Shown piece by piece: positions 11,492 to 31,864 of a stretch of DNA of 53,495 nt. Under the pieces are notes generated by a model. That model worked only from the letters and a program-made list of their open reading frames with translations. It had not been told where the DNA came from and ran no database searches. The first letter of the stretch is position 1, and each line of letters begins with the position of its first letter. Origin of the DNA: Eubacteriales bacterium (GTDB taxonomy: Bacteria > Bacillota > Clostridia > Oscillospirales > Oscillospiraceae); NCBI GenBank assembly GCA_030529655.1, contig JAUMWJ010000009.1, positions 1 to 53,495 of the forward strand. Reading direction: 5' to 3'. The position numbers and the translations under genes were made by a program.

Positions 11492-11520
11492 TTGACAAGC
11501 GTTTTCCTATCCTCTATAAT
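11492..11520 (+). promoter_or_regulatory. Perfect consensus sigma-A promoter for yceD-rpmF
   Basis: TTGACA (11492-11497) and TATAAT (11515-11520) with exactly 17 bases between them. This is the full vegetative consensus and fits strong expression of a ribosomal protein operon. Confidence 0.9.
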
Positions 11521-11547
11521 AGTAGCCGTGTCATTGCGAGGTGTACT

Positions 11548-12051: not shown

Positions 12052-12104
12052 GATATCAAAAATCAATTACTGCACATCGCAGTTAAGACCAAGGAGGTGT
12101 CAAC

Positions 12105-12299: not shown

Positions 12300-12317
12300 T
12301 TACTGTGTGTCCTTGTT

Positions 12318-12352
12318 AGGAGGGAAGAGTGATCTTCCCTCCTTACTTTTTT
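12318..12352 (+). terminator. Terminator after rpmF
   Basis: An 11-base perfect stem (12318-12328 with 12333-12343), a GTGA loop, and a run of six T residues ending at 12352. Confidence 0.92.
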
Positions 12353-12383
12353 GCACGAACCCCTTGTTTTTGCGCTTTTTTCA

Positions 12384-12412
12384 TTGCAAAGGCCGTCCGT
12401 TTCGATTATAAT
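12384..12412 (+). promoter_or_regulatory. Promoter of the DUF512-der-plsY operon
   Basis: TTGCAA (12384-12389) and TATAAT (12407-12412) with 17 bases between. Two further TATAAT hexamers follow at 12421 and 12431, so the exact start site is uncertain. Confidence 0.55.
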
Positions 12413-12472
12413 AAATTAGTTATAATGTGGTATAATATGAATTTGCATTTTAGATAATTGAGGAACGATGAA

Positions 12473-16857: not shown

Positions 16858-18099
16858 TTACTCCACGGTCACACCGCGATCAGCAAAGCCCTTGACCATC
16901 AGATCCAGATCCGGCTCAATATGCAGAGGCTCACCAGCGGACTTAATGGCGTTGGCAACATCCTTCAGGCCGTTACCGGTTACCACGGAAACCACGGTAG
17001 CATCCTTCTCGATCAGACCCTCTTCGCAGGCCTTCTTCAGAGCAGCAGTACCGGTGACACCGGCAGGCTCGCCGAACACACCACAGGTCTTGCCCAACAG
17101 GCGCTGTGCAGCCAGGATCTCCTCGTCGGTCACGCACACGGCGATACCGTTGGACTCGCGGATAGCAGCCAGGGCCTTATCAGCGTTACGAGGCACGCCA
17201 ACGGAGATGGAGTCAGCGATGGTGTTCTCATCCATGGGATACCACTCAGCGTTGTCCTGGATAGCGCGGTTGATGGGATAGCAGCCATAGGACTGAGCAG
17301 AGATCAGACGGGGCAGCTTGTCAATGAAGCCGATAGCGTACAGATCCTTCAGGCCCTTCCAGACACCGGCGATGGTGCAGCCGTCACCGACAGAGATAGC
17401 CAGATAGTCGGGCATTTCCCAGTTGAGCTGCTCAGCGATTTCCAGAGCAACGGTCTTCTTACCTTCGGACAGATAGGGGTTGATAGCGGCGTTACGATTG
17501 TACCAGCCGTACTTATCAATGGCCTCGGCGGACATCTTGAAGGTTTCCTCGTAGTTACCCTTGACAGAGATCACGTTGGCACCGAAGATCATCAGCTGAG
17601 CGACCTTGCCCTTAGGAGCGCGATCGGGAACGAAGATGTAGGTCTTCAGGCCTGCAGCAGCAGCGTTGCCGGCCAGAGAGGAGGCAGCGTTACCGGTGGA
17701 GGAGCAGGCGATGGTCTTAGCACCGGCCTCAATAGCCTTGGCAACTGCCATGGCGCTGGCGCGATCCTTCAGAGATGCGGTGGGGTTCTGACCGTCGTCC
17801 TTGACCCACAACTTCTTGATGCCCAGCATTTCGGCCAGACGGGGTTCCTCATACAGAGGGCTCCAACCCACACGCAGGGGAGTGTCGGGAGTGGTCTCTT
17901 CCACGGGCAGCAGCTCGCGATAACGCCACATGGAACGATTGTCGCGCTTTGCCAGCTTTTCCTTGGTCAGCACGGTCTTGATATAGTCATAATCGTAAAC
18001 GATGTCCAGAATACCGCCGCACTCGCAGTTGGTCAGGTCGGGAGTGGCCTCGTAGGTCTTACCGCACTTGACACACTTACCGTATTTTACGTTTTTCAT
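16858..18099 (-). CDS. thrC: Threonine synthase
   Basis: Converts O-phosphohomoserine to threonine with PLP. The 413-residue protein starts with a zinc-ribbon-like segment (CVKCGKTYEA and CECGG) found in many threonine synthases. The Schiff-base lysine lies in TASLKDRAS near residue 111, STGNAA is near 137, and the phosphate-binding loop SVGDGC is near 238. It follows the small ribbon-helix-helix gene by 22 bases on the same strand, so the two are probably cotranscribed. No other threonine genes are nearby and no leader peptide was seen. Confidence 0.93.
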   Translation of the reverse strand: MKNVKYGKCVKCGKTYEATPDLTNCECGGILDIVYDYDYIKTVLTKEKLAKRDNRSMWRYRELLPVEETTPDTPLRVGWSPLYEEPRLAEMLGIKKLWVKDDGQNPTASLKDRASAMAVAKAIEAGAKTIACSSTGNAASSLAGNAAAAGLKTYIFVPDRAPKGKVAQLMIFGANVISVKGNYEETFKMSAEAIDKYGWYNRNAAINPYLSEGKKTVALEIAEQLNWEMPDYLAISVGDGCTIAGVWKGLKDLYAIGFIDKLPRLISAQSYGCYPINRAIQDNAEWYPMDENTIADSISVGVPRNADKALAAIRESNGIAVCVTDEEILAAQRLLGKTCGVFGEPAGVTGTAALKKACEEGLIEKDATVVSVVTGNGLKDVANAIKSAGEPLHIEPDLDLMVKGFADRGVTVE

Positions 18100-18607: not shown

Positions 18608-18645
18608 CAAGGGCGGGGCTGATGCCCCGCCCTTGAGGCGTTTTT
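18608..18645 (+). terminator. GC-rich terminator
   Basis: A 12-base perfect GC-rich stem (18608-18619 with 18624-18635) with a TGAT loop. After AGGCG comes a run of T. It follows the 64-codon gene and faces the end of the minus-strand PLP enzyme gene. Confidence 0.85.
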
Positions 18646-18660
18646 AATGACGCTTATATC

Positions 18661-20142
18661 TTACAGGTTCTTCAGCAGACCGGTGGCCTCGTTGAACTCG
18701 TTGATCAGCTCATCCAGCTCCTTGGCCTGAGCGTGGACGGCATCCCAAGTGTTCTCCACATCGTACCACTGAGCGTTCAGATCCTCAACATCCATAGCCT
18801 GCTGCTCAACCCAAGTGTAGTACTTCAGGTTGTGGACGCGCTTACGATCAGCGTAGGTCAGCTCGATCATGTTGTCGGTCTTCAGACCCAGCATATGCAG
18901 AGCGTGATCCTTAGCGGCCTCAACACCGTTGTAAGCACCGTGCATCTCGTTCAGCTCTTCGATACGGCTGCCGTACATCACAGCGGAGTCGGTCAGAACG
19001 GTAGCAACGACATCGTTCTCGGTCAGCTCATAGTACTTAGCCATCTTGATGCAGCACAGCACGTTAGCGATACCGGAGATACCCAGCCAGCTCATCTTCT
19101 CGACCTGCTCGTCGGACATGCCCAGTTCTTCCTTCATGTACTTCTTGCCGTCGGCGGTGTTGAACAGGCGCAGCAGACGCTGAGAGTCTTCATCATCGAT
19201 AGCAATCGCCATGTCGGTGTTCTTCACATTGTGGATCCAGGGGATGTGCTTGTCGCCGATACCCTCGATACGGTGGCCGCCAAAGCCGTTGTTCACGATG
19301 GTGGGGCACTGCAGAGCTTCACCAACAGCCAGCTTCAGGTGGGGATAACGCTCCTTCAGCAGATCGCCGGCGGACATGGTGCCAGCGCTGCCGGAAGTGA
19401 AGCAAGCGCCGGCAAAGTTCTGGCCGGGCTTCTTGATGGACTCAAACAGATCTGCCAGAGCATAACCGGTGACATTGTAGTGCCACAGGGGGTTGCCCAT
19501 CTCAGCAAACTGGTTGAAGATCATCATGGTGGGATCCTGCTTCAGTTCCCAAGTCTTGTCGAAGATTTCCTTCACGTTGGACTCGCAGCCGGGGGTAGCA
19601 ATGATCTGGCCGGCGATGGACTTCAGCCAATCGAAACGCTCCTTGGACATATCCTGAGGCAGAATAGCAACGGACTCGCAAGCCAGCAGCTTGGAGTTGA
19701 AAGCGCCGCCACGGCAGTAGTTACCGGTGGAGGGCCATACAGCGTGATGATAGGTAGCGTCAAACTGACCGGTCACCAGACGGGGAGCCAGGCAGCCGAA
19801 GGAAGCGCCGACCTTGTGGCAGCCGGTGGGGAACCACTTACCGGACATAGCAACGATGCGGCAGGGAACGCCACTGAGCTCGCTGGGAATCTCCACATAG
19901 TTGGGAGTGGCCTGGAACAGACCGCCCTTTTCCTTGGCTTCGTTCTTCCAGGAAATACGGAACAGGTTGACAGGATCAACGTCCCACAGACCGGTGTTGC
20001 TGAGCTTAGCCTTGATCTTCTCGGGGATCAGATCGGGGTTCTGCATCTGAGCGATGGTGGGGATGATGATGTTGTTTTCCTTTGCCTTCTGGATATTGTG
20101 CTCCAGACCGGCCTTGTTGATAGACAGATCAATTTTTCCCAT
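18661..20142 (-). CDS. Fold-type II PLP-dependent enzyme, putative ammonia-lyase-like
   Basis: A 493-residue enzyme of the cysteine synthase/threonine dehydratase superfamily (fold type II). The likely Schiff-base lysine is Lys110 in CHKVGAS, the substrate loop is STGN at 138-141, and the phosphate-binding glycine loop is TSGSAGT at 249-255. It is about 90 residues longer than E. coli diaminopropionate ammonia-lyase (YgeX) and not clearly its orthologue. Its place beside ygeY, ygeW and arcC suggests it fills the YgeX role in purine breakdown; this is inference. The start at 20142 lies one base after the regulator stop codon and uses AGGAGG inside the regulator gene. Confidence 0.82.
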   Translation of the reverse strand: MGKIDLSINKAGLEHNIQKAKENNIIIPTIAQMQNPDLIPEKIKAKLSNTGLWDVDPVNLFRISWKNEAKEKGGLFQATPNYVEIPSELSGVPCRIVAMSGKWFPTGCHKVGASFGCLAPRLVTGQFDATYHHAVWPSTGNYCRGGAFNSKLLACESVAILPQDMSKERFDWLKSIAGQIIATPGCESNVKEIFDKTWELKQDPTMMIFNQFAEMGNPLWHYNVTGYALADLFESIKKPGQNFAGACFTSGSAGTMSAGDLLKERYPHLKLAVGEALQCPTIVNNGFGGHRIEGIGDKHIPWIHNVKNTDMAIAIDDEDSQRLLRLFNTADGKKYMKEELGMSDEQVEKMSWLGISGIANVLCCIKMAKYYELTENDVVATVLTDSAVMYGSRIEELNEMHGAYNGVEAAKDHALHMLGLKTDNMIELTYADRKRVHNLKYYTWVEQQAMDVEDLNAQWYDVENTWDAVHAQAKELDELINEFNEATGLLKNL

Positions 20143-20143
20143 G

Positions 20144-20791
20144 TTACTTTTCCTCCTGTTTTTTGTTGGCATCAATATAAGAATATAATGTATATTTGGA
20201 AATACCGAAGTATTTTGCCACTTTGTCACCTGACTTGGTAATCAGGAATGCACCGCTTTCATTCAAAAACTGAATTGCCTTGATCTTGTCGTCCTTGTTC
20301 ATTAAAGCCACCGGCTTCCCGATCATGGTGACAGACTGCTTGATCAGTTCGTTAAGCACATCATTCACATTGACCAGCTTTTCCGGTTCCTTTTGTTCCT
20401 TGTCGGTCGGCAGAAGCATATCTTCCACTTCCTTCTTCATCATCAGCAGCGCCGTTACATCGTAGTTAATGGAGAAGATCGCCGCTACTACGCCTTTGCT
20501 GTTGCGTATGTAAAGTGAAGAGGATTTCAGAATCTTTCCGTCAGACGTGCGTGTCAGATAGCAGAGATGATCCTTCGCCTCTTTATCCTGACTGCGCAGT
20601 TGATCAAGTACCACCTTGGACGCACCGTCGCCGATTTTACGGCCGGATACATGTCCATTCACTATATATATAATGGAATGATCCGAATGGCGGCTGTTGA
20701 CATCGTGTATAACGACTTCGCACTTACTGCCGAATTGGGCCGCAATACCGTCCGCCAACTGCTTTAAGGTGTCCAGCTTTTTGCTTTCCAT
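20144..20791 (-). CDS. DauR-like transcriptional regulator (YheO-PAS plus HTH)
   Basis: A 215-residue regulator. Residues ~5-120 match the YheO-like PAS domain (CEVVIHDV and IYIVNGHVSGRKIGD), and residues ~150-205 match the DauR-type helix-turn-helix ending KYFGISKYTLYSYID. In family members the PAS domain senses a small molecule. The gene is cotranscribed and probably translationally coupled with the PLP enzyme gene, and it is divergent from ygeY. It is the obvious local regulator of the purine/amino-acid island; the ligand is unknown. Confidence 0.88.
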   Translation of the reverse strand: MESKKLDTLKQLADGIAAQFGSKCEVVIHDVNSRHSDHSIIYIVNGHVSGRKIGDGASKVVLDQLRSQDKEAKDHLCYLTRTSDGKILKSSSLYIRNSKGVVAAIFSINYDVTALLMMKKEVEDMLLPTDKEQKEPEKLVNVNDVLNELIKQSVTMIGKPVALMNKDDKIKAIQFLNESGAFLITKSGDKVAKYFGISKYTLYSYIDANKKQEEK

Positions 20792-20830
20792 GTATCGCCC
20801 TCCTGCCCATCTTTAATTTTCACCATGTTC

Positions 20831-20858
20831 ATCATACCACATTTTCGCCAGAAATCAA
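20831..20858 (-). promoter_or_regulatory. Promoter of the regulator-PLP enzyme operon
   Basis: On the minus strand TTGATT (20853-20858) and TATGAT (20831-20836) are spaced by 16 bases, about 40 bases upstream of the regulator start. Confidence 0.5.
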
Positions 20859-20899
20859 TGCTTTCTACAAAAAAATTTTTAGGTTTAATAAATTTTTGT

Positions 20900-20929
20900 T
20901 TGACTTCCACGAATGGTGTGTTATTATAG
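20900..20929 (+). promoter_or_regulatory. Promoter of ygeY
   Basis: TTGACT (20900-20905) with TATTAT (20922-20927, spacer 16) or TTATAG (20924-20929, spacer 18), about 60 bases upstream of the ygeY start. An A/T-tract region lies between it and the divergent regulator promoter. Confidence 0.5.
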
Positions 20930-20987
20930 TGTTGTAAGAAACCAAACTTACCCACAAATTGTAATTATTATAATATGGAGGTACACT

Positions 20988-22385
20988 ATGGATTTTGAAG
21001 CGATCAAAAAGGCTGCTGAGGGCTATAAGCCCGCGATGAGCAAGTTCCTGCGTGACATGATTGCCATTCCTTCCGAGTCCTGCGAGGAAGAGGGCGTTGT
21101 TAAGCGTATTGCCGAAGAGATGAAGGCCCTGGGCTACGACAAGGTCGAGTTCGACAAGCTGGGTAATGTCATCGGCTGGATGGGCAATGGCGACAAGATC
21201 ATTGCTATCGACTCCCATATTGATACCGTTGGTATCGGCAACATCAACAACTGGGAATGCAACCCCTACGAAGGCTATGAGACTGATGATATTATCTATG
21301 GCCGCGGCGGCAGCGACCAGGAAGGCGGCATGGCTTCCGCTACCTACGGCGTGAAGATCATGAAGGATCTGAACCTGATCCCCGAGGGCTACAAGATGAT
21401 GGTCGTCGGCTCCGTTCAGGAAGAGGATTGCGACGGTATGTGCTGGCAGTCCATCGTGAACGAGTACTTCAACGGTCCCGAAGATGCACGCAACCAGGTT
21501 GAGTTCGTCATCTCCACCGAGCCCACCGACGGCGGTATCTATCGCGGTCATCGCGGCCGTATGGAAATCCGCGTTGATATGCGCGGCATCTCCTGCCACG
21601 GCTCCGCTCCCGAGCGCGGTGACAACGCTATCCACAAGATGGCTGAGGTTATCGAGAACGTTCGCGACCTGAACGAGAATCCCGCTGACGGTTCCACCGA
21701 GATCAACGGCCTGGTCAAGATGCTGGATCCCAAGTTCAACCCCGATCATTATGAAGATGCTCGTTTCCTGGGTAAGGGTACCTGCACCACTTCTCAGATC
21801 TTCTACACCTCTCCCTCCCGCTGCGCTGTTGCTGATAGCTGCGCTATCTCCATCGACCGTCGTATGACCGCCGGTGAGACCTATCAGTCCTGCCTGAAGG
21901 AGATCGAGGATCTGCCCGCCTGCAAGAAGTATGCTAAGGACGTCAAGGTTTCCATGTATATGTATGACCGTCCCGCATGGACCGGTCACGTCTACGAGAC
22001 CGAGTGCTTCTTCCCCACCTGGATCAACAAGGAGTCCGCTCCTCACGTTCAGGCTCTGATCGATGCTCACCACGGTCTGTGGGGCACCGAGCGTCTGATG
22101 CCCACCGAGCTGGCTGCTTCCAAGCGCGAAGGCCGTCCTCTGACCGATAAGTGGACCTTCTCCACCAACGGTGTTTCCATCCAGGGTCGTTATGGTATCC
22201 CTTGCGTCGGCTTCGGCCCCGGTGCTGAGTCTCAGGCTCACGCTCCCAACGAAGTGACCTTCAAGCAGGATCTGGTGACCTGCGCCGCTCTGTACGCTGC
22301 AGTTCCCGGCCTGTACAAGCCCGAGAACAAGGACGGCTCCGCTACCTCCTTCCGTCAGGAGCTGACCGGCAACGACATCAAGTAA
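20988..22385 (+). CDS. ygeY: YgeY-family M20 metallohydrolase
   Basis: Zinc-dependent M20/ArgE/DapE-type amidohydrolase of the selenium-metabolism-linked YgeY family, 465 residues. Metal ligands appear as His77 in DSHIDT, bridging Asp110 in [10 protein letters not shown], and the catalytic pair Glu145-Glu146 in VQEEDC. Homologues belong to the E. coli ygeW-ygfK cluster, now tied to anaerobic purine/urate breakdown. YgeY probably hydrolyses an N-carbamoyl or formyl intermediate; that step is inferred. The start at 20988 follows GGAGG. Codons favour GCT, GGT, CGT and TCC, as in highly expressed genes. It is followed by a 13-base-pair hairpin before ygeW. Confidence 0.9.
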
Positions 22386-22400
22386 TTTCGTTGGTTTCTT

Positions 22401-22429
22401 CCGATGAGCCGTGATTCACGGCTCATCGG
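22401..22429 (+). other. Intercistronic hairpin between ygeY and ygeW
   Basis: A perfect 13-base stem (22401-22413 with 22417-22429) and a three-base loop. No T run follows, so it is more likely an RNA processing or stabilising element than a terminator. Confidence 0.7.
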
Positions 22430-22482
22430 GGAATCATATACCTATTAAAATATTAAATAATTTTACAAGGAGAATGACAACA

Positions 22483-23676
22483 ATGAGCAAGACTGTTGAA
22501 CTGGCTCGTCACCTCGAGACCCTGCATATCAACAATATGTACAAGAACGATTTCTATTGGACTTGGGACAAGACCGATGATGAAATCGATGCTATCTTCA
22601 CCGTCGCTGACGCTCTGCGCGACCTGCGTGAGCGCAACAAGAGCACCCGCGTGTTCGATTCCGGCCTGGGTATTTCCCTGTTCCGCGACAACTCCACCCG
22701 TACCCGTTTCTCCTTCGCTTCCGCCTGCAACCTGCTGGGTCTGGAAGAGCAGGTTCTGGACGAGAAGAAGTCCCAGATCGCTCACGGTGAGACCGTTCGT
22801 GAGACCGCTAACATGGTTTCCTTCATGGCTGATGTCATCGGTATCCGCGATGATATGTACATTGGCCAGGGCCATACCTATCAGAAGACCTTCATGGACG
22901 CTCTGGAAGACGGTTACCGTCAGGGCATCCTGGAGCAGCGCCCCACTCTGGTGAATCTGCAGTGCGACGTTGACCACCCCACTCAGTGCATGGCTGATAT
23001 GCTGCACGTGATCCACTACTTCGGTGGTGTGGAGAACCTGAAGGGCAAGAAGGTTGCTATGACTTGGGCTTATTCTCCCTCCTATGGCAAGCCCCTGTCC
23101 GTTCCTCAGGGCGTCATCGGTCTGTTCACCCGTTTCGGCATGGACGTGACTCTGGCTCACCCCGAAGGATACGACGTTATGCCCGAGGTCGAGGAAGTCG
23201 CCCGCAAGAACTGCGAGAAGTACGGCTCCAAGTTCCACAAGACCAACAGCATGGCTGAGGCCTTCAAGGATGCTGATATCGTTTATCCCAAGTCCTGGGC
23301 TCCCTTCGCTGCTATGGAAGAGCGCACCAAGCTGTACTCCGCCGGCGATCAGGCTGGTATCGATGCTCTGGAAAAGCGCCTGCTGGCTCAGAATGCCGAG
23401 CATAAGGATTGGGCTTGCACCGAGGAAATGATGAAGCTGACCAAGGACGGTAAGGCTCTGTACATGCACTGCCTGCCCGCCGACATCACCGGTCTGAGCT
23501 GCAAGGAAGGCGAAGTTGATAACTCCGTGTTCGATCGTTATATCGTTCCCCTGTACAAGGAAGCTTCCTACAAGCCCTATATCATTGCTGCTATGATCTT
23601 CATGTCCCAGGTTAAGGATCCCGTCAAGGCCCTGATGAAGCTGGACGCTGCTGACGATCATCGCAAGCTGTTCTAA
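22483..23676 (+). CDS. ygeW: YgeW-type knotted carbamoyltransferase
   Basis: Aspartate/ornithine carbamoyltransferase-fold protein of the YgeW family, 397 residues. The carbamoyl-phosphate motif STRTRF is at residues 71-76, DHPTQ near 167, and HCLPAD near 329, so the carbamoyl-phosphate site is intact. In the purine-breakdown setting it would run in the phosphorolytic direction, releasing carbamoyl phosphate from a ureido compound for the neighbouring carbamate kinase. The natural substrate is not proven. The start at 22483 has AAGGAG ten bases before; the ATG at 22474 is too close to that site. Confidence 0.9.
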   Translation: MSKTVELARHLETLHINNMYKNDFYWTWDKTDDEIDAIFTVADALRDLRERNKSTRVFDSGLGISLFRDNSTRTRFSFASACNLLGLEEQVLDEKKSQIAHGETVRETANMVSFMADVIGIRDDMYIGQGHTYQKTFMDALEDGYRQGILEQRPTLVNLQCDVDHPTQCMADMLHVIHYFGGVENLKGKKVAMTWAYSPSYGKPLSVPQGVIGLFTRFGMDVTLAHPEGYDVMPEVEEVARKNCEKYGSKFHKTNSMAEAFKDADIVYPKSWAPFAAMEERTKLYSAGDQAGIDALEKRLLAQNAEHKDWACTEEMMKLTKDGKALYMHCLPADITGLSCKEGEVDNSVFDRYIVPLYKEASYKPYIIAAMIFMSQVKDPVKALMKLDAADDHRKLF

Positions 23677-23707
23677 TTCAGATTAGTTAGAATAAGTTGC
23701 ATTTCCG

Positions 23708-23740
23708 AAGGCGGGAGTGTCTCGCGACACTCCCGCCTTT
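23708..23740 (+). other. Intercistronic hairpin between ygeW and arcC
   Basis: A perfect 14-base stem (23708-23721 with 23726-23739) with a TCGC loop, followed by only three T residues. It may be a weak terminator or an mRNA-stability element within the operon. Confidence 0.7.
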
Positions 23741-23773
23741 ACCCATGACACATATTAAAAGAGGTAATAGAAA

Positions 23774-24709
23774 ATGAGCAAGAAAATTGTTATTGCGCTG
23801 GGTGGCAACGCTCTGGGTAACACCGCCACTGAGCAGTTGGAGTTGGTTGCCAACACTGCCAAGGCCATTGTTGATCTGATCGCTGAAGGTAACGAGGTCG
23901 TCATCGCACACGGTAATGGCCCTCAGGTCGGTATGATCAATCTGGGTCTGTCCACCGCCGCTGAGTCCGGTGCTATCAAGGCCGATATGCCTTTCCCCGA
24001 ATGCGGCGCTATGTCCGAGGGTTACATCGGTTATCATCTGCAGCAGGCCATCGGCAATGAGCTGGTTTCCCGCGGCATGAACAAGCCCGTGGCTACCATC
24101 GTTACTCAGACCGTCGTGTCTGAGGATGACCCCGCTTTCCAGAATCCCACCAAGCCCGTTGGCGCTTTCTATGACAAGGAAACCGCAGAGCGCATTGCTG
24201 CGGAAAAGGGCTTCACCATGGTTGAGGATGCCGGTCGTGGCTATCGTCGTGTTGTCCCCTCCCCCAAGCCCTTCGACATCGTTGAGGCCGCTTCCATCAA
24301 GACGCTGGTTGACGCCGGTAATGTAGTCATCGCAGTGGGCGGCGGCGGTATTCCTGTTATCCGCAAGGACGGCATGGTTTCCGGTACTCCCGCCGTTATC
24401 GATAAGGACTTCGGTTCCGAGCTGCTGGCTGAGCTGCTGGATGCCGATATGCTGATCATCCTGACCGCTGTTGAAAAGGTCGCTATCAACTTCAACAAGC
24501 CCGATCAGAAGGGTCTGGATGACCTGACTCCCGCCGAGGCATCTGAGTACATTGCTCAGAACCAGTTCGCTAAGGGCTCCATGCTGCCCAAGGTTCAGGC
24601 CGCTGTCAAGTTTGCTGAGTCCAAGCCCGGCCGCACCGCTCTGATCACCCTGCTGGAGAAGGCCAAGGACGGTATCGCCGGCAAGACCGGTACCCGTATC
24701 CATCAGTAA
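23774..24709 (+). CDS. arcC: Carbamate kinase
   Basis: Transfers phosphate from carbamoyl phosphate to ADP, giving ATP plus carbamate (then ammonia and CO2). The 311-residue protein has the ArcC/YqeA signatures KIVIALGGNAL at the N-terminus, HGNGPQVG near 44-51, and GGGGIPV near 191. Downstream of YgeW it would be the substrate-level phosphorylation step of the island. A GAGGTAATAG site precedes the ATG. The last codons and flanking 3' sequence recur as a 56-base repeat at 24831-24886. Confidence 0.95.
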   Translation: MSKKIVIALGGNALGNTATEQLELVANTAKAIVDLIAEGNEVVIAHGNGPQVGMINLGLSTAAESGAIKADMPFPECGAMSEGYIGYHLQQAIGNELVSRGMNKPVATIVTQTVVSEDDPAFQNPTKPVGAFYDKETAERIAAEKGFTMVEDAGRGYRRVVPSPKPFDIVEAASIKTLVDAGNVVIAVGGGGIPVIRKDGMVSGTPAVIDKDFGSELLAELLDADMLIILTAVEKVAINFNKPDQKGLDDLTPAEASEYIAQNQFAKGSMLPKVQAAVKFAESKPGRTALITLLEKAKDGIAGKTGTRIHQ

Positions 24710-24724
24710 TATCTTCCATTTTGA
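24669..24724 (+). repeat. Direct repeat, copy 1 (3' end of arcC)
   Basis: This 56-base segment covers the last 13 or so codons of arcC plus 15 bases of 3' flank. It recurs at 24831-24886 with a single difference (T versus C), an offset of 162 bases. Confidence 0.95.
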
Positions 24725-24755
24725 CAGGAGAGGCAAAAGCCTCTCCTGTTCTTTT
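24724..24755 (+). terminator. Terminator after arcC
   Basis: An 11-base perfect stem (24724-24734 with 24739-24749), AAAA loop, then a T-rich tail TCTTTT. Confidence 0.85.
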
Positions 24756-24786
24756 AGGCGATCAGCCGTCCTTTATTAAAATTCAT

Positions 24787-24832
24787 GCGCCACTTTCGCC
24801 ATGCGAAAGCGCGGTGGCGACACCGTCGCCAC
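24787..24832. repeat. REP-like double hairpin element
   Basis: CTTTCGC-CAT-GCGAAAG (24793-24809) is one perfect hairpin and GTGGCGAC-ACC-GTCGCCAC (24814-24832) another. CGCCAC at 24788-24793 could also pair with GTGGCG at 24814-24819, giving a competing fold. It sits between the two copies of the arcC 3' repeat. It resembles repetitive extragenic palindromes, but other copies must be found genome-wide. Confidence 0.5.
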
Positions 24833-24886
24833 GGTATCGCCGGCAAGACCGGCACCCGTATCCATCAGTAATATCTTCCATTTTGA
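24831..24886 (+). repeat. Direct repeat, copy 2 (duplicate of arcC 3' end)
   Basis: 55 of 56 bases match 24669-24724. No open frame or start codon makes this copy a gene; it is a non-coding duplicate of the arcC tail. Confidence 0.95.
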
Positions 24887-24916
24887 AAAGAGAGACTTCG
24901 GTTTCTCTTTTCTTTT
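24885..24916 (+). terminator. Second terminator downstream of arcC
   Basis: A 12-base stem with one G-T pair (24885-24896 with 24901-24912), a TTCG tetraloop and four T residues. It lies just after repeat copy 2, in the same relation as the first terminator has to copy 1. Confidence 0.8.
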
Positions 24917-25077
24917 ATCATGTCCTATGCCCTGTCTTTCAATGGACGCCACACAGCTATCATGGATTTTTTTATTGAGAACAAATGTTTTTTTTCATTG
25001 CAATACTAATATTGTCCAAATTTTACAAATTATTTTTGTGCAAGCATCATAAAAATTGTCATCTGTGCTATTTCCAG

Positions 25078-25106
25078 TTGAAATTCTGTTTATCATCCTG
25101 TATAAT
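25078..25106 (+). promoter_or_regulatory. Promoter of the BMP lipoprotein gene
   Basis: TTGAAA (25078-25083) and TATAAT (25101-25106) with a 17-base spacer; a 114-base leader follows before the start codon. Confidence 0.7.
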
Positions 25107-25130
25107 ACATCTGTCGCACGAATAAAAAGT

Positions 25131-25172
25131 GAATTTCGGACAACTGTCCGTTTTTCAGATATCCGGAAATTC
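25131..25172 (+). promoter_or_regulatory. Possible attenuator in the leader
   Basis: CGGAC (25137-25141) and GTCCG (25146-25150) form a short hairpin followed by five T residues, like a weak terminator. GAATTTCGGA (25131-25140) could instead pair with TCCGGAAATTC (25162-25172). No known riboswitch class was recognised. Confidence 0.35.
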
Positions 25173-25220
25173 TTTCTTCTTTCGCCGGGTATCAAAATAT
25201 TAAAGGAGGAACAAACAAGC

Positions 25221-26426
25221 ATGAAAAAGTTTCTTGCACTGATTCTCGCTCTGGTTATGGCTCTGAGCCTGGTAGCCTGCGGTGAGAAGACCCCCGCTGG
25301 CGGTGACGATGCTGCCAAGCTGAAGGTAGGTATCGTTCTGGTCGGCGATGAAAACGAGGGTTACACTGCTGCCCACATGGACGGCATCAAGGCTGCTGCC
25401 GCTGCCTGCGGTCTGGCTGATGAGAACCTGGTATGGTGCTACAACATCCCCGAGAATGAAGAGTGCTACGACAAGTGCGTCGAGTGCGTCGAGCAGGGCT
25501 GCAACGTGGTCATCACCAACTCCTACAGCCATCAGACCTACACCCAGCAGGCTGCTGAGGAGAATCCCAATGTCCAGTTCGTTGCTATGACCGGTGATAC
25601 CGCTATGAAGTCCGGCCTGAAGAACTTCCACAACGCTTTCAACTACACCTTCGAGTCCCGCTACGTTTCCGGTATCGTTGCCGGTATGAAGCTGAAGGAA
25701 CTGATGGATGCCGGCAAGGTTACCGATCCTTACATCGGCTATGTTGGCGCATATCCCTATGCTGAAGTGGTTTCCGGTTACACCGGCTTCTTCCTGGGCA
25801 TCAAGAGCATCGTTCCCGAAGCTCACATGGATGTTCAGTACACCAACTCCTGGTTCAACATTCAGGACGAGGGCAAGGCCGCTGAAGCTCTGATGTCTCG
25901 CGGCTGCGTCATCATTGGTCAGCACGCTGACTCCACCGGCGCTCCCAAGGCTGTTCAGACCGCTAAGGACAATGGCCAGGTCGTATACTCCGTTGGTTAC
26001 AACGTTGATATGCTGAAGGCTGCTCCCACTGCTGCTCTGACTTCTGCCTCCAACAACTGGTCCGTGTTCTACACCTATCTGTTCAACGCTATGCTGAACG
26101 GTGAGGAAGTTAAGACCGACTGGGCTGCCGGTTACAACGAAGGTGCTGTCTGCATCACCGAGCTGGGCCCCGAGGTTGCTGAGGGTACTGCTGAGGCCGT
26201 TGCCGCTGCTGAGAAAGCTATCAAGGCCGGTGAGCTGCATGTCTTCGACACCGCTAACTTCACTGTCGGCGGTCAGCCTGTCACCAGCGCTTTCACCTTC
26301 GATAGCGACGGCGACTGGGCCAACGACACCAACGAGGGTATCGTGGATGGTTACTATCATGAGTCTGAGTACATCTCCGCTCCTTCCTTCAGTCTGCGTA
26401 TCGATGGCATCACTGAGCTGAACTAA
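25221..26426 (+). CDS. BMP-family substrate-binding lipoprotein of a purine/nucleoside ABC transporter
   Basis: Extracytoplasmic receptor of the basic membrane protein (BmpA/PnrA) family, 401 residues. The N-terminus MKKFLALILALVMALSLVAC is a lipoprotein signal with the lipidated cysteine at residue 20. The mature part follows the periplasmic-binding fold starting KLKVGIVLVGDENEGY. PnrA-type proteins bind purine nucleosides; here the ligand could be a purine base, urate or nucleoside. It has its own promoter and terminator, so it can be made in excess over the membrane components downstream. Codon choice suggests high expression. AAAGGAGGA precedes the ATG. Confidence 0.92.
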   Translation: MKKFLALILALVMALSLVACGEKTPAGGDDAAKLKVGIVLVGDENEGYTAAHMDGIKAAAAACGLADENLVWCYNIPENEECYDKCVECVEQGCNVVITNSYSHQTYTQQAAEENPNVQFVAMTGDTAMKSGLKNFHNAFNYTFESRYVSGIVAGMKLKELMDAGKVTDPYIGYVGAYPYAEVVSGYTGFFLGIKSIVPEAHMDVQYTNSWFNIQDEGKAAEALMSRGCVIIGQHADSTGAPKAVQTAKDNGQVVYSVGYNVDMLKAAPTAALTSASNNWSVFYTYLFNAMLNGEEVKTDWAAGYNEGAVCITELGPEVAEGTAEAVAAAEKAIKAGELHVFDTANFTVGGQPVTSAFTFDSDGDWANDTNEGIVDGYYHESEYISAPSFSLRIDGITELN

Positions 26427-26446
26427 TTACATCACTCTTATGATCC

Positions 26447-26476
26447 AAAAAGGACTGCCTTCGGGCAGTCCTTTTT
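26447..26476 (+). terminator. Terminator after the BMP lipoprotein gene
   Basis: A 13-base perfect stem (26447-26459 with 26464-26476) capped by a TTCG tetraloop, with five T residues. Confidence 0.92.
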
Positions 26477-26490
26477 CATATCTGTTGTCC

Positions 26491-26537
26491 CTACTTTATT
26501 CCACTGCCGCATTAACTGCGGCAGTGGAATAAAGTAG
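26491..26537. repeat. 21-base perfect inverted repeat
   Basis: Arms 26491-26511 and 26517-26537 are exactly complementary with a five-base loop TTAAC. No T run follows. It is separate from the terminator just upstream. Confidence 0.9.
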
Positions 26538-26581
26538 ATTTCAGTAAAAAAAGCCAAAATAGCATCCGGAGTTTTCCCAGG

Positions 26582-26619
26582 GAACATTGTCGAAATTCAC
26601 AAAAAATTCGACAGTGTTC
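26582..26619. promoter_or_regulatory. Inverted repeat upstream of the transporter promoter
   Basis: GAACATTGTCGAA (26582-26594) and TTCGACAGTGTTC (26607-26619) are complementary apart from one G-T pair, 12 bases apart. It lies about 50 bases upstream of the -35 box, so it may be an operator or activator site. Confidence 0.5.
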
Positions 26620-26669
26620 TGTTGCTTTAAACACTATTTTAGAATATCAAAAAATTTTTTGATTTTTAA

Positions 26670-26698
26670 TTTACAACCAAAAAAAAATGTGGTAAAAT
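26670..26698 (+). promoter_or_regulatory. Promoter of the ABC ATPase-permease genes
   Basis: TTTACA (26670-26675) and TAAAAT (26693-26698) with a 17-base spacer rich in A. Confidence 0.6.
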
Positions 26699-26764
26699 TG
26701 CTGTGAAATAAATCGGGTATAAGCACCTTTTAGCACCCTTACCCCGAAAGAAAGGATGACAGCC

Positions 26765-28297
26765 TTGGAAACTGCATGCGCAATTAAAATGGAGAATATC
26801 ACCAAGCGCTTTGGTAGTGTTGTTGCTAATAACAGCATCAATATGGATTTGCGCGAAGGCGAAATTTTGTCCTTGCTGGGTGAAAACGGCAGCGGCAAAA
26901 CGACCCTGATGAATATGCTCTCCGGCATCTACTTCCCCGATGAGGGACAAATTTATGTTCACGGCCAGCCCGTGACCATTGCTTCTCCTAAGGACGCATT
27001 CGATAACGGTATCGGTATGATCCACCAGCACTTCAAACTGGTCGATGTCTTCACCGCCACCGAGAATATCGTATTGGGTCTGGAAGGCGAAGGCAAACTG
27101 GATCTGAAGAAGGCCGGCGAAAAGGTCAAGGAGATCTGCGATAAGTACGGCTTTGATATCAAGCCCGACCAGAAGATTTACGATATGTCCGTTTCTCAGA
27201 AGCAGACCGTTGAAATCGTTAAGGTACTGTATCGCGGCGCTGATATTCTGATTCTGGACGAGCCTACCGCCGTTCTGACTCCTCAGGAAACCACTAAGCT
27301 GTTCGCTATTATGCGCAACATGCAAAAGGATGGTAAGTCCTTGATCATCATCACCCATAAGCTGCACGAGGTGCTGGATGTTTCCGATCGTGTTGCTATT
27401 CTGCGTAAGGGTGAGTACATCGGCGATGTGGCCACCAAGGACGCTAACCAGCAGTCCCTGACCGATATGATGGTCGGCCGCAGCGTATCTTTGAATATCG
27501 ACCGTCCCGAGCCCGTGAATCCTCAGCCTCGTCTGGAGATCAAGAATCTGACCTGCTATGATGAGTTGGGTGTTAAGCGTCTGGATGATGTAACCTTTAC
27601 CGCCAATAGTGGTGAAGTGCTGGGTATTGCCGGTGTTGCCGGTTCCGGTCAGAAGGAGCTGCTGGAATCCATTTCCGGTTTGTATCCCATTTCCAGTGGT
27701 TCTATCACATTCCACGATCCGAACACCGGCAAGGATGTTGAACTGGTCGGCAAGGATCCCCTGGATATTAAGAAGGCCGGCGTGGCAATGGCTTTCGTTC
27801 CCGAAGATCGTCTGGGCATGGGTCTGGTCGGCACTATGGGCATGACCGGTAACATGATGCTGCGTTCCTGGCGTAAGGGCAAGGGTCTGTTCGTCAACCA
27901 TAAGGAACCCGAAGAACTGGCTAACCGTATTTGGAAAGACCTGGAGGTCGTTACTCCCAGCACCAGTTTCCCCGTACGTCGTATGTCCGGTGGTAATGTG
28001 CAGAAGGTACTGGTTGGCCGTGAAATCGCGCAGGAGCCCGCCGTTCTGATGAGTGCTTATGCTGTCCGCGGTCTGGATATCAATACATCTTACACTATTT
28101 ATAATCTGATGACCGCCGAAAAGATGAAGGGTAATGCCGTCATCTATGTCGGTGAAGATTTGGACGTTCTTTTGGAGCTGTGCGACCGTATTGTCGTTCT
28201 GTGTGGCGGTCAGGTTTCCGGCGTAGTGGATGGTCGTACCATCACCAAGGAAGAAGTCGGTCTGCTGATGACCCAGCATAGAAAGGAGGCCGAATAA
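26765..28297 (+). CDS. Purine/nucleoside ABC transporter ATPase with two nucleotide-binding domains
   Basis: A 510-residue double ATPase of the YufO/NupO (RbsA-like) type. The first domain has a full Walker A (GENGSGKTT), signature region MSVSQKQTVEI and Walker B (ILILDEPTA). The second has a degenerate Walker A (GVAGSGQKE), signature MSGGNVQK and an altered Walker B region (LMSAYAVRGLD), the usual asymmetry of this family. Start choice: the ATG at 26756 directly abuts AAAGG with no spacing, so the in-frame TTG at 26765 is preferred. It overlaps the next gene by one base. Confidence 0.9.
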   Translation: METACAIKMENITKRFGSVVANNSINMDLREGEILSLLGENGSGKTTLMNMLSGIYFPDEGQIYVHGQPVTIASPKDAFDNGIGMIHQHFKLVDVFTATENIVLGLEGEGKLDLKKAGEKVKEICDKYGFDIKPDQKIYDMSVSQKQTVEIVKVLYRGADILILDEPTAVLTPQETTKLFAIMRNMQKDGKSLIIITHKLHEVLDVSDRVAILRKGEYIGDVATKDANQQSLTDMMVGRSVSLNIDRPEPVNPQPRLEIKNLTCYDELGVKRLDDVTFTANSGEVLGIAGVAGSGQKELLESISGLYPISSGSITFHDPNTGKDVELVGKDPLDIKKAGVAMAFVPEDRLGMGLVGTMGMTGNMMLRSWRKGKGLFVNHKEPEELANRIWKDLEVVTPSTSFPVRRMSGGNVQKVLVGREIAQEPAVLMSAYAVRGLDINTSYTIYNLMTAEKMKGNAVIYVGEDLDVLLELCDRIVVLCGGQVSGVVDGRTITKEEVGLLMTQHRKEAE

Positions 28298-29409
28298 TGG
28301 AAAAGAAATCCGTTCATGAGCCCTTAATTCGTATGTCTAAGCGCGGTGAAATGCTGCCCGCTTGGAAGGCATGGGGCATCCGTGTTATTGCATTCTTTCT
28401 GAGTCTTGTGGTCTGCGGTATCGTTATCGTAGCTATCTCCGGCTTGAACCCTGTTCAGGTCTTCTCTACCATGGCAAGCGGTGCATTCGGCACGGCAAAG
28501 CGTTCCTGGGTCACCATCCGTGATGCCATGACCATGCTGTGCATCGCCGTTGGTCTGGCTCCCGCATTCAAGATGAAATTCTGGAACATCGGCGCTGAAG
28601 GTCAGATCCTGGTTGGCGGTATCGCCTGCGCAGCCTGCATGATCTACCTCAAGAGCCTGCCCACCATCGTGCTGTTGTTGGTCATGATTATCGCCAGCTT
28701 GGTTGCCGGTGGTCTGTGGGGCTTCCTGCCCGGCGTGTTTAAGGCCATCTGGAACACCAACGAAACTCTGTTCACCCTGATGATGAACTACATCGCCATT
28801 CAGTTGACCAGCTTCTTCGTGGCAAAGTGGGAAAACCCCTTTGGCTCCAACTCCGTTGGCGTGATCAACTCCGCCGGCAAGGAGGGTTGGCTGCCCAACC
28901 TGTTCTCCTCTGGTTACAACGGTGACTTCGGTTGGAACGTCATTCTGGTTCTGATTATTACCGTTTTCATGTACCTGTACATGACCAAGTCCAAGCACGG
29001 TTATGAGATCGCCGTGATCGGTGACTCTGAGAATACCGCCCGTTATGCCGGCATCCGTGTCAACAAGGCTTATGTCCGCACCATCATTCTCTCCGGTGCT
29101 ATCTGCGGTTTGGCCGGTTTCATTGCCGTGTCCGGCGCATCCCACACCATCTCCACCTCCACCGCCGGTGGCCGTGGTTTTACCGCTATCATCGTAGCTT
29201 GGCTGGCTCAGTTCAACAGCGTGGTCATGGTCATCTTCTCCTTCCTGATTGTCGCTCTGCAGAAGGGCGCTCAGGCTATCGCCTCTCAGTACAACCTGAG
29301 CCAGGAAGTTTCCGAAATGATCACCGGTATCATTCTGTTCTTCCTGCTGGGCAGCGAGTTCTTTGTTAACTACATCGTGCGTTTCCGTAGAAAGAAGGTG
29401 ACCAAGTAA
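28297..29409 (+). CDS. ABC transporter permease 1 (YufP-like)
   Basis: Inner-membrane permease of the BMP-type importer, 370 residues with about nine or ten hydrophobic segments. Family features include KFWNIGAEGQILVGG and NETLFTLMMNYIA, typical of the YufP/BmpC branch of branched-chain-type permeases. Start and stop overlap neighbours by one base (TAATG), so synthesis is coupled to the ATPase and the second permease. Confidence 0.92.
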   Translation: MEKKSVHEPLIRMSKRGEMLPAWKAWGIRVIAFFLSLVVCGIVIVAISGLNPVQVFSTMASGAFGTAKRSWVTIRDAMTMLCIAVGLAPAFKMKFWNIGAEGQILVGGIACAACMIYLKSLPTIVLLLVMIIASLVAGGLWGFLPGVFKAIWNTNETLFTLMMNYIAIQLTSFFVAKWENPFGSNSVGVINSAGKEGWLPNLFSSGYNGDFGWNVILVLIITVFMYLYMTKSKHGYEIAVIGDSENTARYAGIRVNKAYVRTIILSGAICGLAGFIAVSGASHTISTSTAGGRGFTAIIVAWLAQFNSVVMVIFSFLIVALQKGAQAIASQYNLSQEVSEMITGIILFFLLGSEFFVNYIVRFRRKKVTK

Positions 29410-30389
29410 TGGCTCAATTGCTATCTCTGCTGAACTCCGCCATCGCTTTCGGTACTGTTATTATGCTGGGCTCTCTCGGCGAGACCCTGATTGAAAAGTC
29501 CGGTAACCTGAACCTTGGTATCCCCGGTATCATGTACCTGGGCGGTATCGGCGGTATGATCGCTGCTTTCTTCTATGAGTGTGTTGGCGGCGGAAAGTCC
29601 CCCATCGTTGGTCTGATTCTCAGCTTCCTGTGCAGCATGGCATTCGCTGCTGCCGGTGGTCTGATCTATGCTTTCCTGACCATCACGCTGCGTGCTAACC
29701 AGAACGTTACCGGTCTGACGCTGACCATCTTCGGCGGCGGCGTGGCTAACTTCTTTGGCGCCAGCTTGAACACTCTGGCCGGTGGTGTTGGTCAGATTTC
29801 TACCCCCATTACCTCCAGCGCTTATATTGCATACACCCCGCTGGGCTTTAAGGGTGTTCTCGGCAAGCTGATTTTCGGCCATGGCTTCATGGTCTATCTG
29901 GCAATCGTCATTGCCATTCTGATGTCCTACTTCCTGAACAAAACGCGCACTGGTCTGAATCTGCGCGCTGTCGGCGAGAACCCCGGTACTGCCGATGCTG
30001 CCGGTATCAATGTTACTAAGTATAAGTACATCGGTATCATCTGTGGCTCTGCTATTGCCGGTCTTGGTGGTCTGTTCTATACCATGGACTACATCAAGGG
30101 CACTTGGGCAAACGATGCCGTGATCGAGGGCTTGGGTTGGTTGGCCGTTGCTCTGGTTATCTTCGGCACCTGGAAGCCTCTGAACTCTATCTGGGGCGCT
30201 TACCTGTTCGGCTTTGTGTACTGGGCTTACCTGTACATCCCCGGTCTGAACCGTAGTTCCATCGAGCTGTTCAAGATGCTGCCTTATGTGATTACACTGA
30301 TCGTTCTGATCGCGGTGTCCCTGCGTAAGCGTCGTGAGAACCAGCCGCCTGCCTCTTTGGGCTTGAGCTATTTCCGCGAAGAGCGCTGA
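29409..30389 (+). CDS. ABC transporter permease 2 (YufQ-like)
   Basis: Second membrane subunit of the importer, 326 residues with eight or more membrane segments. GSLGETLIEKSGNLNLGIPG at the N-terminus and AVGENPGTADAAGI in the middle match the YufQ/BmpD branch. It overlaps permease 1 by one base and ends the transporter operon. Confidence 0.92.
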   Translation: MAQLLSLLNSAIAFGTVIMLGSLGETLIEKSGNLNLGIPGIMYLGGIGGMIAAFFYECVGGGKSPIVGLILSFLCSMAFAAAGGLIYAFLTITLRANQNVTGLTLTIFGGGVANFFGASLNTLAGGVGQISTPITSSAYIAYTPLGFKGVLGKLIFGHGFMVYLAIVIAILMSYFLNKTRTGLNLRAVGENPGTADAAGINVTKYKYIGIICGSAIAGLGGLFYTMDYIKGTWANDAVIEGLGWLAVALVIFGTWKPLNSIWGAYLFGFVYWAYLYIPGLNRSSIELFKMLPYVITLIVLIAVSLRKRRENQPPASLGLSYFREER

Positions 30390-30454
30390 CAAAATCCATA
30401 CCTCATTCCCCTTTCTCACCTGCTTCCACGGGGAATGTTGATTAAAATGCGGAT

Positions 30455-30489
30455 GAGCAGGCCCTTTTGGGCCTGCTCGTTTTATTTTT
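30455..30489 (+). terminator. Terminator after the transporter operon
   Basis: A ten-base perfect stem (30455-30464 with 30469-30478), TTTT loop, then GTTTTATTTTT. Confidence 0.88.
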
Positions 30490-30508
30490 GTAATAAAGGA
30501 GAAACACT

Positions 30509-31864
30509 ATGTCTACTCTGTTAATCAAAAATATTTCCCAACTTGTCACCTGCGATGATAACGATCGCCTGCTGACCAATGCCGACATCTACTGCGAAGA
30601 TGGTTTCATTAAAGAGATTGGCCAAAATCTCGATGTCACCGCCGACGAGACGATTGACGCCACCCATATGCTGTGCTACCCCGGCCTGGTCAATACCCAT
30701 CATCATCTGTATCAGGTCTTTTCCCGCAATCTGCCCCAGGTACAGAACATGGAGCTGTTTGACTGGCTGAAAACGCTGTATGAGATTTGGAAGAATCTGG
30801 ATCATGATGTGATTCGTCTGAGCAGTCTGACCGGTATGGGTGAACTGATGAAAAACGGCTGCACCACCTGCTTCGACCATCACTATGTTTTTCCTGCCAA
30901 TGCCGGCGATCTGATCGGCACGCAGTTTGCCGCTGCCGATGAACTGGGCATCCGTATGTATGCCAGCCGCGGCAGCATGGATCTGAGTGTCAAGGACGGC
31001 GGTCTGCCTCCCGACAGTGTGGTGCAGACGGTTGACGAGATCATGGCTGACAGCGCTCGCCTGATCGAAAAGTATCATGACACTTCCTACGGTGCTATGC
31101 ACCGTATTGCTCTGGCTCCCTGCTCTCCCTTCTCCGTGTCCGCTGAGCTGCTGCGCCAGAGTGCTATCCTGGCTCGCCAGTACGGCGTCCGTCTGCATAC
31201 CCACCTGTGCGAAACCAAGGATGAAGAGAACTTTATGCTTCAGCGTGAAGGCATCCGTCCTCTGGAGTATATGGAGCGTCTGGGGTGGATCGGCGATGAT
31301 GTGTGGTATGCCCACGGCATCCACTTCAACGATGAAGAACTACGCTTGCTGGCTAAAACCGGTACCGGTGTGGCACATTGCCCCATCTCCAATATGAAGC
31401 TGTCCTCTGGTATTGCACGCATTCCCGAAATGCTGGAACTGGGCGTTCCCGTTGGTCTGGCTGTGGATGGCAGCGCCAGCAACGATGGCTCCAGCCTGCT
31501 GGAAGAGCTGCGTGTGGCATTCCTGCTGCACCGACTGAATTCCAGTCGTCAGGCTCCCACCGGCTATGACATCCTGAAAATGGCTACTCGCGGCAGCGCT
31601 CGTCTGCTGGGTCGTGACGACATCGGTTCCCTGGCAGTCGGCAAGTGCGCTGACTTGTTTATGGTCGATGAGCGCCGTCTGGAGCTGGTCGGTGCCTGCG
31701 TAGATGCCAAGTCCGTACTGGGTACGGTTGGTCTGCGCGGTGCTGTGGACTACACCGTGGTACACGGTCGCGTTACCGTAAAGGGCGGCCGTCTGACTAC
31801 CATTGATGAGGATAAGATTGCCTTCGATGCCAACAAGAAGTGCATGGAATATCTGAGCAAGTAA
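30509..31864 (+). CDS. Amidohydrolase, 8-oxoguanine deaminase type
   Basis: A 451-residue metal-dependent deaminase of the amidohydrolase superfamily (SsnA/TrzN/guanine deaminase group). Metal-binding residues appear as HHH at 64-66 (VNTHHHLYQ), HLCET near 232, a further His in HGIHFN near 270, and Asp in DGSASND near 321. The pattern resembles 8-oxoguanine deaminases (8-oxoguanine to urate), more than E. coli SsnA itself. Deaminating an oxidised purine to urate or xanthine would feed the ygeY-ygeW-arcC route. Other aminopurines are possible substrates. AAAGGAG lies before the ATG, and the transporter terminator lies only 20 bases upstream, so expression may rely on read-through. Confidence 0.85.
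   Translation: MSTLLIKNISQLVTCDDNDRLLTNADIYCEDGFIKEIGQNLDVTADETIDATHMLCYPGLVNTHHHLYQVFSRNLPQVQNMELFDWLKTLYEIWKNLDHDVIRLSSLTGMGELMKNGCTTCFDHHYVFPANAGDLIGTQFAAADELGIRMYASRGSMDLSVKDGGLPPDSVVQTVDEIMADSARLIEKYHDTSYGAMHRIALAPCSPFSVSAELLRQSAILARQYGVRLHTHLCETKDEENFMLQREGIRPLEYMERLGWIGDDVWYAHGIHFNDEELRLLAKTGTGVAHCPISNMKLSSGIARIPEMLELGVPVGLAVDGSASNDGSSLLEELRVAFLLHRLNSSRQAPTGYDILKMATRGSARLLGRDDIGSLAVGKCADLFMVDERRLELVGACVDAKSVLGTVGLRGAVDYTVVHGRVTVKGGRLTTIDEDKIAFDANKKCMEYLSK

Follow-up and report, generated by a model that had tools for sequence, protein, structure and literature searches.

A probable reductive uric acid pathway in an Oscillospiraceae genome without YgeX, and two fold-II pyridoxal phosphate enzymes as candidates for its last step

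How does a bacterium that encodes the reductive breakdown of urate complete the pathway when YgeX, the enzyme assigned to its last step, is not found in its genome? The question is raised by a contig of 53,495 bases (JAUMWJ010000009.1 of assembly GCA_030529655.1; contig C33, the whole of which is referred to here as the window) from a draft genome of an Eubacteriales bacterium of the family Oscillospiraceae (G000; 1.595 Mb, 97.4% complete, 48 contigs). An initial annotation had grouped a regulator, a pyridoxal phosphate (PLP) enzyme, ygeY, ygeW, arcC, a BMP-type ATP-binding cassette (ABC) importer and an 8-oxoguanine deaminase family gene at positions 18661–31864 into a candidate island for anaerobic purine or urate fermentation. 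Family profile scores confirmed all of these genes at their coordinates, and the gene content supports the core of that proposal, namely fermentation with ATP gained from carbamoyl phosphate. The window genes very probably belong to the reductive urate pathway. As an overall explanation we favour, with reasonable confidence, the view that carbamoyl recovery and the terminal part of this pathway are encoded in the window, and the earlier steps on contigs C16 and C4. The cluster is a real and functionally coherent unit of a recently described pathway, its terminal enzyme missing and the likely substitutes unstudied according to the literature searched.

The reductive uric acid pathway was reconstituted by Li et al. 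in 2025 with Escherichia coli and Clostridioides difficile proteins (PMC12507026) and has been reviewed in a commentary by Percudani (PMC12990295). According to these sources, reduction of urate to yanthine is followed by ring opening to 2,3-diureidopropionate; YgeW and YgeY then take off the ureido groups, and YgeX converts 2,3-diaminopropionate to pyruvate and ammonia. The synteny of hyuA, ygeW, ygeY, ssnA and xdh had been noted earlier and tied to purine catabolism (PMC4016543). The window encodes, all on the forward strand, the M20 hydrolase YgeY (20988–22385; NF009555 score 592, cut-off 321, with the profile scan started one codon upstream of 20988), the knotted carbamoyltransferase YgeW (22474–23676; TIGR03316 771, cut-off 500, the sole match in the genome) and the carbamate kinase ArcC (23774–24709; TIGR00746 392, cut-off 358).

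The initial annotation had allowed that ring-opening genes might lie outside the window and had named their absence from the genome, combined with a lack of growth or induction on any purine, as one result that would speak against purine breakdown; the genome search located ygfK, ssnA, hyuA and xdhD on other contigs, all over cut-off. Genes in stretches of 20 kb of each of C16 and C4 were scored against family profiles. C16 carries the D-hydantoinase gene hyuA (681–2084; TIGR02033 567, cut-off 393), ygfK (4290–7241; TIGR03315 1285.5, cut-off 835.3) and ssnA (7413–8855; NF005540 614, cut-off 444, and TIGR03314 537.8, cut-off 455.5). C4 carries an XdhD-type molybdenum reductase (2177–5056; TIGR03313 1198.6, cut-off 1101.9), whose FAD subunit is short and falls under its cut-off (77.6 against 241.5), and a selenium-dependent xanthine dehydrogenase (Se-XDH; 10048–12738, 1265.8 against 830); a search with MoCoBD_2 returned three molybdenum hydroxylase genes on this contig. 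The XdhD, YgfK, SsnA, HyuA, YgeW, YgeY and carbamate kinase families are thus those of the pathway in E. coli, C. difficile and C. sporogenes. Unlike in those organisms, the genes are spread over three contigs and accompanied by a BMP importer and a PAS_6/HTH_22 regulator, and YgeX is absent, with a divergent PLP enzyme and a threonine synthase-like (ThrC-like) paralogue present instead.

A search of the window genome with the YgeX profile TIGR01747 gave nothing over the cut-off of 274, the sole match being one of 21.6 bits in the ThrC-like gene. The PLP enzyme that the initial annotation had placed in the cluster as a lyase is present, but it is not the known YgeX. An assembly gap is conceivable in a draft metagenome-assembled genome (MAG) that is 97.4% complete and in 48 contigs; it is scarcely credible as the cause, since genome G071, given as 100% complete, also lacks YgeX, as do 38 of 50 genomes that carry the PLP enzyme, and we rejected it on the complete genome of a relative, Oscillibacter valericigenes Sjm18-20, which is without YgeX likewise. 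We consider it likely, judging from sequence, that the PLP enzyme and its ThrC-like neighbour substitute for YgeX.

The PLP enzyme (18661–20142, reverse strand, 493 amino acids) belongs to the cysteine synthase/cystathionine beta-synthase superfamily and is divergent: it reaches 31.2 bits with PF00291, for which Pfam sets a cut-off of 35; among NCBIfam profiles cysK matches it best, at 68.7 bits (far under the cut-off of 351); it has no match to the YgeX family TIGR01747; and the best PDB relative reaches 62 bits across the 190 central residues. Conservation is nonetheless strong, with 66–88% identity across 10 genomes of the order, and the closest relative among named loci (94% identity) is in Candidatus Cacconaster stercorequi. 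GCHKVGAS is found in 80 of 81 sequences, and STGN and TSGSAGT in all 81; by comparison with fold-II enzymes, these motifs would correspond to the PLP lysine, the substrate loop and the phosphate loop. Like the 2,3-diaminopropionate ammonia-lyase YgeX, the enzyme is of fold II, uses PLP and is encoded among the same neighbouring genes.

The ThrC-like gene (thrS-like; 16858–18099, reverse strand), which lies outside the coordinates of the initial annotation, is the commonest neighbour of the PLP gene, occurring within 10 kb of it in 61 of 80 loci. These 80 loci are the best of at least 579 relatives of the PLP enzyme, and all neighbours were counted within 10 kb. In a sample of 245 genomes of the order, the thrS-like gene adjoins the PLP gene in all 10 genomes that carry the latter. 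The window protein is itself a fold-II PLP enzyme and passes the threonine synthase profiles NF006050 (329, cut-off 303) and TIGR00260 (223.9, cut-off 167.1), with 247.9 bits to PF00291, but it departs from class I threonine synthases at two motifs. At the positions where the solved enzymes 2zsj, 6cgq and 1uim have STGNT and NS-NPxR, all 62 ThrC-like proteins compared have STGNA, and 61 of the 62 have NAAINPYL or a close variant of it. These positions form part of the phosphohomoserine site, and the ThrC-like protein seems to have lost its phosphate-site residues; such a loss would suit a substrate without phosphate, diaminopropionate for instance. The protein has the look of a specialised paralogue, since a second ThrC over cut-off was found in each of the nine other PLP genomes tested. 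In the window genome it is the sole threonine synthase over cut-off, so that the organism may need threonine or the paralogue may still make it.

The association of the PLP enzyme with urate genes extends well beyond the window. Among the 80 loci, ygeY lies near the PLP gene in 53, ygeW in 50, the regulator in 46, arcC in 40, a BMP-type ATPase (>300 bits) in 32 and ygeX in 5, and because these genes recur in this way the grouping is not due to chance. All of PLP, thrS-like, ygeY, ygeW, hyuA, ygfK and ssnA stand together in 10 of the 80 loci, one of which (L163) also contains ygeX; whole-genome searches gave no YgeX match for the other nine (8 of the 50 genomes described below, and L123, genome G071). 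The same all-in-one loci bear on whether the cluster might degrade some other ureido compound, such as hydantoin, a pyrimidine or allantoin. YgeY, YgeW, ArcC and hydantoinase chemistry is presumably generic to ureido compounds, but the window genome has XdhD, YgfK, SsnA and HyuA over cut-off, and the joining of ygfK, ssnA and hyuA with PLP, ygeY and ygeW in single loci likewise argues for urate, leaving another substrate very unlikely.

In the order sample (n = 245), the PLP enzyme was found in 10 genomes, YgeW in 17, YgeX in 18 and full-length YgfK in 8, and all eight YgfK genomes fall within the 10 PLP genomes (hypergeometric probability 1.6e-13, kinship ignored). YgeX accompanies YgeW in 15 of 17 genomes; the other two, the window genome and G071, have the PLP gene beside ygeY–ygeW, and none of the 17 lacks both enzymes. 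Whole-genome searches for YgeX and SsnA were made in 50 genomes hand-picked, not drawn at random, from the 80 loci (42 with PLP beside ygeW and 8 others); all were chosen for carrying the PLP enzyme, and the SsnA frequencies hold for PLP carriers only. YgeX was found in 12 of these genomes and SsnA in 48 (46 over cut-off), and 37 of the 38 that lack YgeX have SsnA, 36 of them over cut-off. Among the YgeX-lacking genomes are the complete one of O. valericigenes Sjm18-20 (L138, G257) and that of the isolate O. ruminantium GH1; both have ygfK directly next to ssnA. The thrS-like gene is in the PLP locus of 32 of the 37 YgeX-lacking SsnA genomes. Over 59 distinct genomes (L141 and G184 are the same genome, as are L123 and G071; L141 was dropped), YgeX is absent from 34 of the 44 with PLP beside ygeW, compared with 6 of the 15 others (Fisher p = 0.006 on the raw table, with the duplicate kept).

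Several results weigh against a substitution of YgeX by this pair. The PLP enzyme and YgeX occur together in 19 of the 59 distinct genomes, the PLP/YgeX pattern among the 17 YgeW genomes is not significant (p = 0.47), and a tree-aware pair test of PLP beside ygeW against absence of YgeX was null (3 independent pairs, median p of 1). The state of YgeX changes at least eight times on the PLP tree. A strict one-for-one replacement of YgeX by the PLP enzyme is not supported, given the co-occurrence and the null pair test. Genome G184 has the PLP enzyme and YgeX with no match to YgeW, YgfK or SsnA, so that the link of the PLP enzyme to the pathway has exceptions. The thrS-like gene is missing from the PLP locus in 5 of the 37 YgeX-lacking SsnA genomes; in two of these it stands beside ssnA (L201 and L203), in two the PLP contig ends early, and in the fifth it was not seen in either stretch examined (L198/L202). 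Finally, serine biosynthesis genes near some PLP genes, discussed below, hint at another chemistry.

Evidence for a link to urate that does not depend on gene order comes from the regulator and its promoter region. The PAS_6/HTH_22 regulator (20144–20791, reverse strand, in the orientation of the PLP enzyme; PF08348 130.5 bits, PF13309 73.1 bits) also adjoins ygeX or ssnA in L080, L082, L084, L163 and L209. Between it and the divergent ygeY lies a 29-base double A-tract/T-tract site (20869–20897, no strand assigned), a possible operator, with a sigma-70-like promoter of ygeY directly 3' of it (20900–20927, forward strand; TTGACT-16-TATTAT, 10 of 12 matches). The double pattern has one match in the window and 22 in the 1,333,143 bases of the 80 loci, with none in three runs of a first-order Markov background, which ignores homopolymer runs and AT-rich spacers; the pattern was derived from reading the regulator/ygeY spacers themselves and so is tuned on the same data. 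Twelve of the 22 matches are near the regulator by script and six more lie at ygeY, PLP or ygeX by manual reading, the remaining four being near ssnA (L123), in the gap between arcC and the BMP binding protein gene (L130), at an unlabelled position (L168) and near an amidohydrolase (L180). The pattern separates ygeX from Se-XDH in L080, from the regulator in L082 and from PLP in L192; in L209 it lies in the gap between ssnA and the regulator, and in L191 it is upstream of a PLP gene that has no other pathway genes nearby. Its presence at ygeX, ssnA and PLP promoters ties the PLP enzyme to a urate regulon independently of gene order. In 37 regulator/ygeY spacers, the motif A5-N0-2-T5 was found in 24 against 0.2 expected from shuffles, which break homopolymer runs, and palindromes showed no excess over locally shuffled sequence; the stretches of 20 kb scored on C16 and C4 of the window genome contained no double site. 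The regulator probably controls the operons through the double site.

These observations also bear on whether the PLP pair is co-induced with the urate genes yet serves another role, such as amino acid salvage or cysteine or serine synthesis, with diaminopropionate excreted or cleaved by an enzyme that has escaped recognition. We find this rather unlikely as a whole. The coexistence of the PLP enzyme with YgeX in nearly a third of the distinct genomes (19 of 59), the several PLP loci without a labelled pathway gene, and G184 speak for such a role. Set against them are the SsnA count (48 of 50 PLP genomes, including several without a pathway gene in the PLP locus), the confinement of all eight YgfK genomes of the order sample to the 10 PLP genomes, and the position of the double site, upstream of PLP in L191 and in the gap from ygeX to PLP in L192.

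The neighbouring serine genes suggest a further possibility, in which the PLP enzyme would put phosphate (or water) in the place of the beta-amino group of diaminopropionate to form O-phosphoserine (or serine), and SerC and SerA, running backwards, would lead to 3-phosphoglycerate and thence to lower glycolysis, with ATP saved, or to gluconeogenesis, rather than straight to pyruvate. We regard this exit as unlikely. SerC is found near the PLP gene in 10 of the 80 loci, less than 100 bp downstream of it in six, SerA in six and DUF1015 in seven. In L163, SerC stands between thrS-like and ssnA-ygfK-SeXDH-hyuA; in L201, whose genome lacks YgeX, the genes for thrS-like, the importer, SerC and SerA are divergent from ssnA-ygfK-SeXDH; in L202, SerA-SerC is less than 4 kb from ssnA; and L162 has in addition a serine dehydratase and a xanthine/uracil-type permease. 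All three SerC proteins scored pass TIGR01364 (488–499, cut-off 443.6), but none of the three SerA-like proteins scored, all of them short, reaches the phosphoglycerate dehydrogenase cut-off (275–315 against 454), and neither SerC nor SerA is labelled in the window locus or in 70 of the 80 loci. The apparent loss of phosphate-site residues in the ThrC-like protein counts against this exit, and the formation of a phosphate ester from an amine would probably be uphill. SerC–SerA–DUF1015 may moreover be an ordinary serine operon, the plainer account being serine synthesis beside an unrelated lyase. The broader proposition, that urate carbon leaves by O-phosphoserine or serine, SerC and SerA to 3-phosphoglycerate in many gut Clostridia, with the ThrC-like protein acting on the other stereoisomer as a racemase or lyase, appears to us more doubtful still; were such an exit real, urate would feed glycolysis and gluconeogenesis and yield extra ATP.

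The importer and the deaminase may supply the pathway with substrate. The BMP/PnrA importer is complete by domain matches, and all its genes are on the forward strand: a solute-binding lipoprotein (25218–26426; PF02608, 97 bits), an ATPase (26756–28297; PF00005, 147 bits) and two permeases (28297–29409 and 29409–30389; both PF02653). The initial annotation had noted that BMP transporters import purine nucleosides; the binding protein here is closest to purine-base binders and only marginally like the nucleoside type. The nearest solved chains are 3s99 and AtzT (6pi5), the purine-base binders scoring 116 and 103 bits; import of nucleosides was not favoured, as TmpC (2fqw), which we take to be a nucleoside-binding protein, scores 22 bits. 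Tyr45, Ser97, Glu165 and Trp194 of AtzT align with identical residues in the window protein (hand-derived, with a numbering offset of 5), whereas Asn218, Asn220, Asn169 and Thr139 differ, and the 218–220 stretch reads like 3s99. This proximity to 3s99 and AtzT, with shared pocket residues, suggests a free purine base as the ligand. AtzT has been reported to keep guanine through purification and to bind it at 110 nM, and adenine is modelled in 3s99 (PMC6834077).

The amidohydrolase downstream of the importer (30509–31864, forward strand) passes the 8-oxoguanine deaminase profile NF006055 (578.5, cut-off 532), with 3hpa and 7ww2 as its best solved matches. The family placement in the initial annotation thus holds, but not the role of conserved pathway step: a close copy (>75% identity) occurs in 3 of the 80 loci, the enzyme is not a member of the core cluster, and a core step was rejected on that count. 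Two relatives have been reported to make uric acid from 8-oxoguanine, with data not shown in that report (PMC6186785), and the deaminase could for this reason feed urate into the pathway as an occasional feeder gene.

Taken together, the route would begin with uptake of a purine base or 8-oxoguanine by the BMP importer, with deamination of 8-oxoguanine to urate and oxidation of xanthine to urate by Se-XDH, as assigned at the family level. XdhD would reduce urate to yanthine, and YgfK, SsnA and HyuA would carry out ring reduction and opening to 2,3-diureidopropionate. By analogy with steps shown by others for homologues, YgeW would then take off one ureido group as carbamoyl phosphate, from which ArcC would form ATP, and YgeY would take off the other to leave 2,3-diaminopropionate. 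The last step, that of YgeX, would fall jointly to the divergent PLP enzyme and the adjacent ThrC-like enzyme, and the regulator would act on the operons through the double A-tract site.

The reductive urate pathway was resolved only in 2025 and is discussed as a means of lowering blood urate. In 37 of the 50 PLP genomes, mostly of gut Oscillospiraceae and other Clostridia, SsnA is kept and YgeX not found, and two specific candidate proteins can now be named for the missing step; no description of a PLP pair in place of YgeX was recognised among the literature matches listed. Li et al. coloured their YgeX network by Pfam PF00291 (PMC12507026), and the YgeX-lacking variant may have been counted there as YgeX, because the ThrC-like protein matches PF00291 strongly, at 247.9 bits, with the PLP enzyme under cut-off. 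Cultured carriers such as O. valericigenes make the question directly testable.

As to layout, ygeY, ygeW and arcC diverge from the minus-strand PLP and regulator genes and are followed by the importer genes and the deaminase. Terminator-like stems at 24885–24912, 26447–26476, 30451–30482 and, between the PLP and ThrC-like genes, 18608–18635, together with promoter-like sites starting at 20900, 25078 and 26670, point to several transcription units instead of a single one, with the qualification that promoter-like matches in the region (12, against a shuffled mean of 11.3) show no excess and that counts of promoter and terminator types are about those of shuffled sequence. A single A6T6 site (26649–26660, no strand assigned) precedes the promoter-like sequence of the BMP ATPase (26670–26698) as the double site precedes the ygeY promoter.

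A few individual loci deserve mention. In L162 (285–18810), from a Lachnospiraceae MAG, one run comprises an 8-oxoguanine deaminase, the BMP importer, thrS-like, a sigma-54 activator and PLP, and also SerC, SerA, a serine dehydratase, an M20 hydrolase and a xanthine/uracil-type permease. In L167 (9956–16280), and also in L170 and L179, the genes after PLP are SerC, SerA, DUF1015 and one resembling ygeX (56–58% identity to the reference YgeX). A protein of G183 (L073, 3156–4796) matches only the N-terminal 428 of 1012 YgfK positions (623.8 bits, under cut-off) and stands beside Se-XDH, thrS-like, PLP and hyuA, an arrangement that may resemble that of UacX in C. difficile. On C4 of the window genome (L015), a second xanthine dehydrogenase-like set lies between XdhD and Se-XDH (5775–9296), consisting of FAD, 2Fe-2S and 730-amino-acid molybdenum subunits, all under their cut-offs, and near it a reading frame at 9217–9993 resembles, by eye, a MocA-type nucleotidyltransferase.

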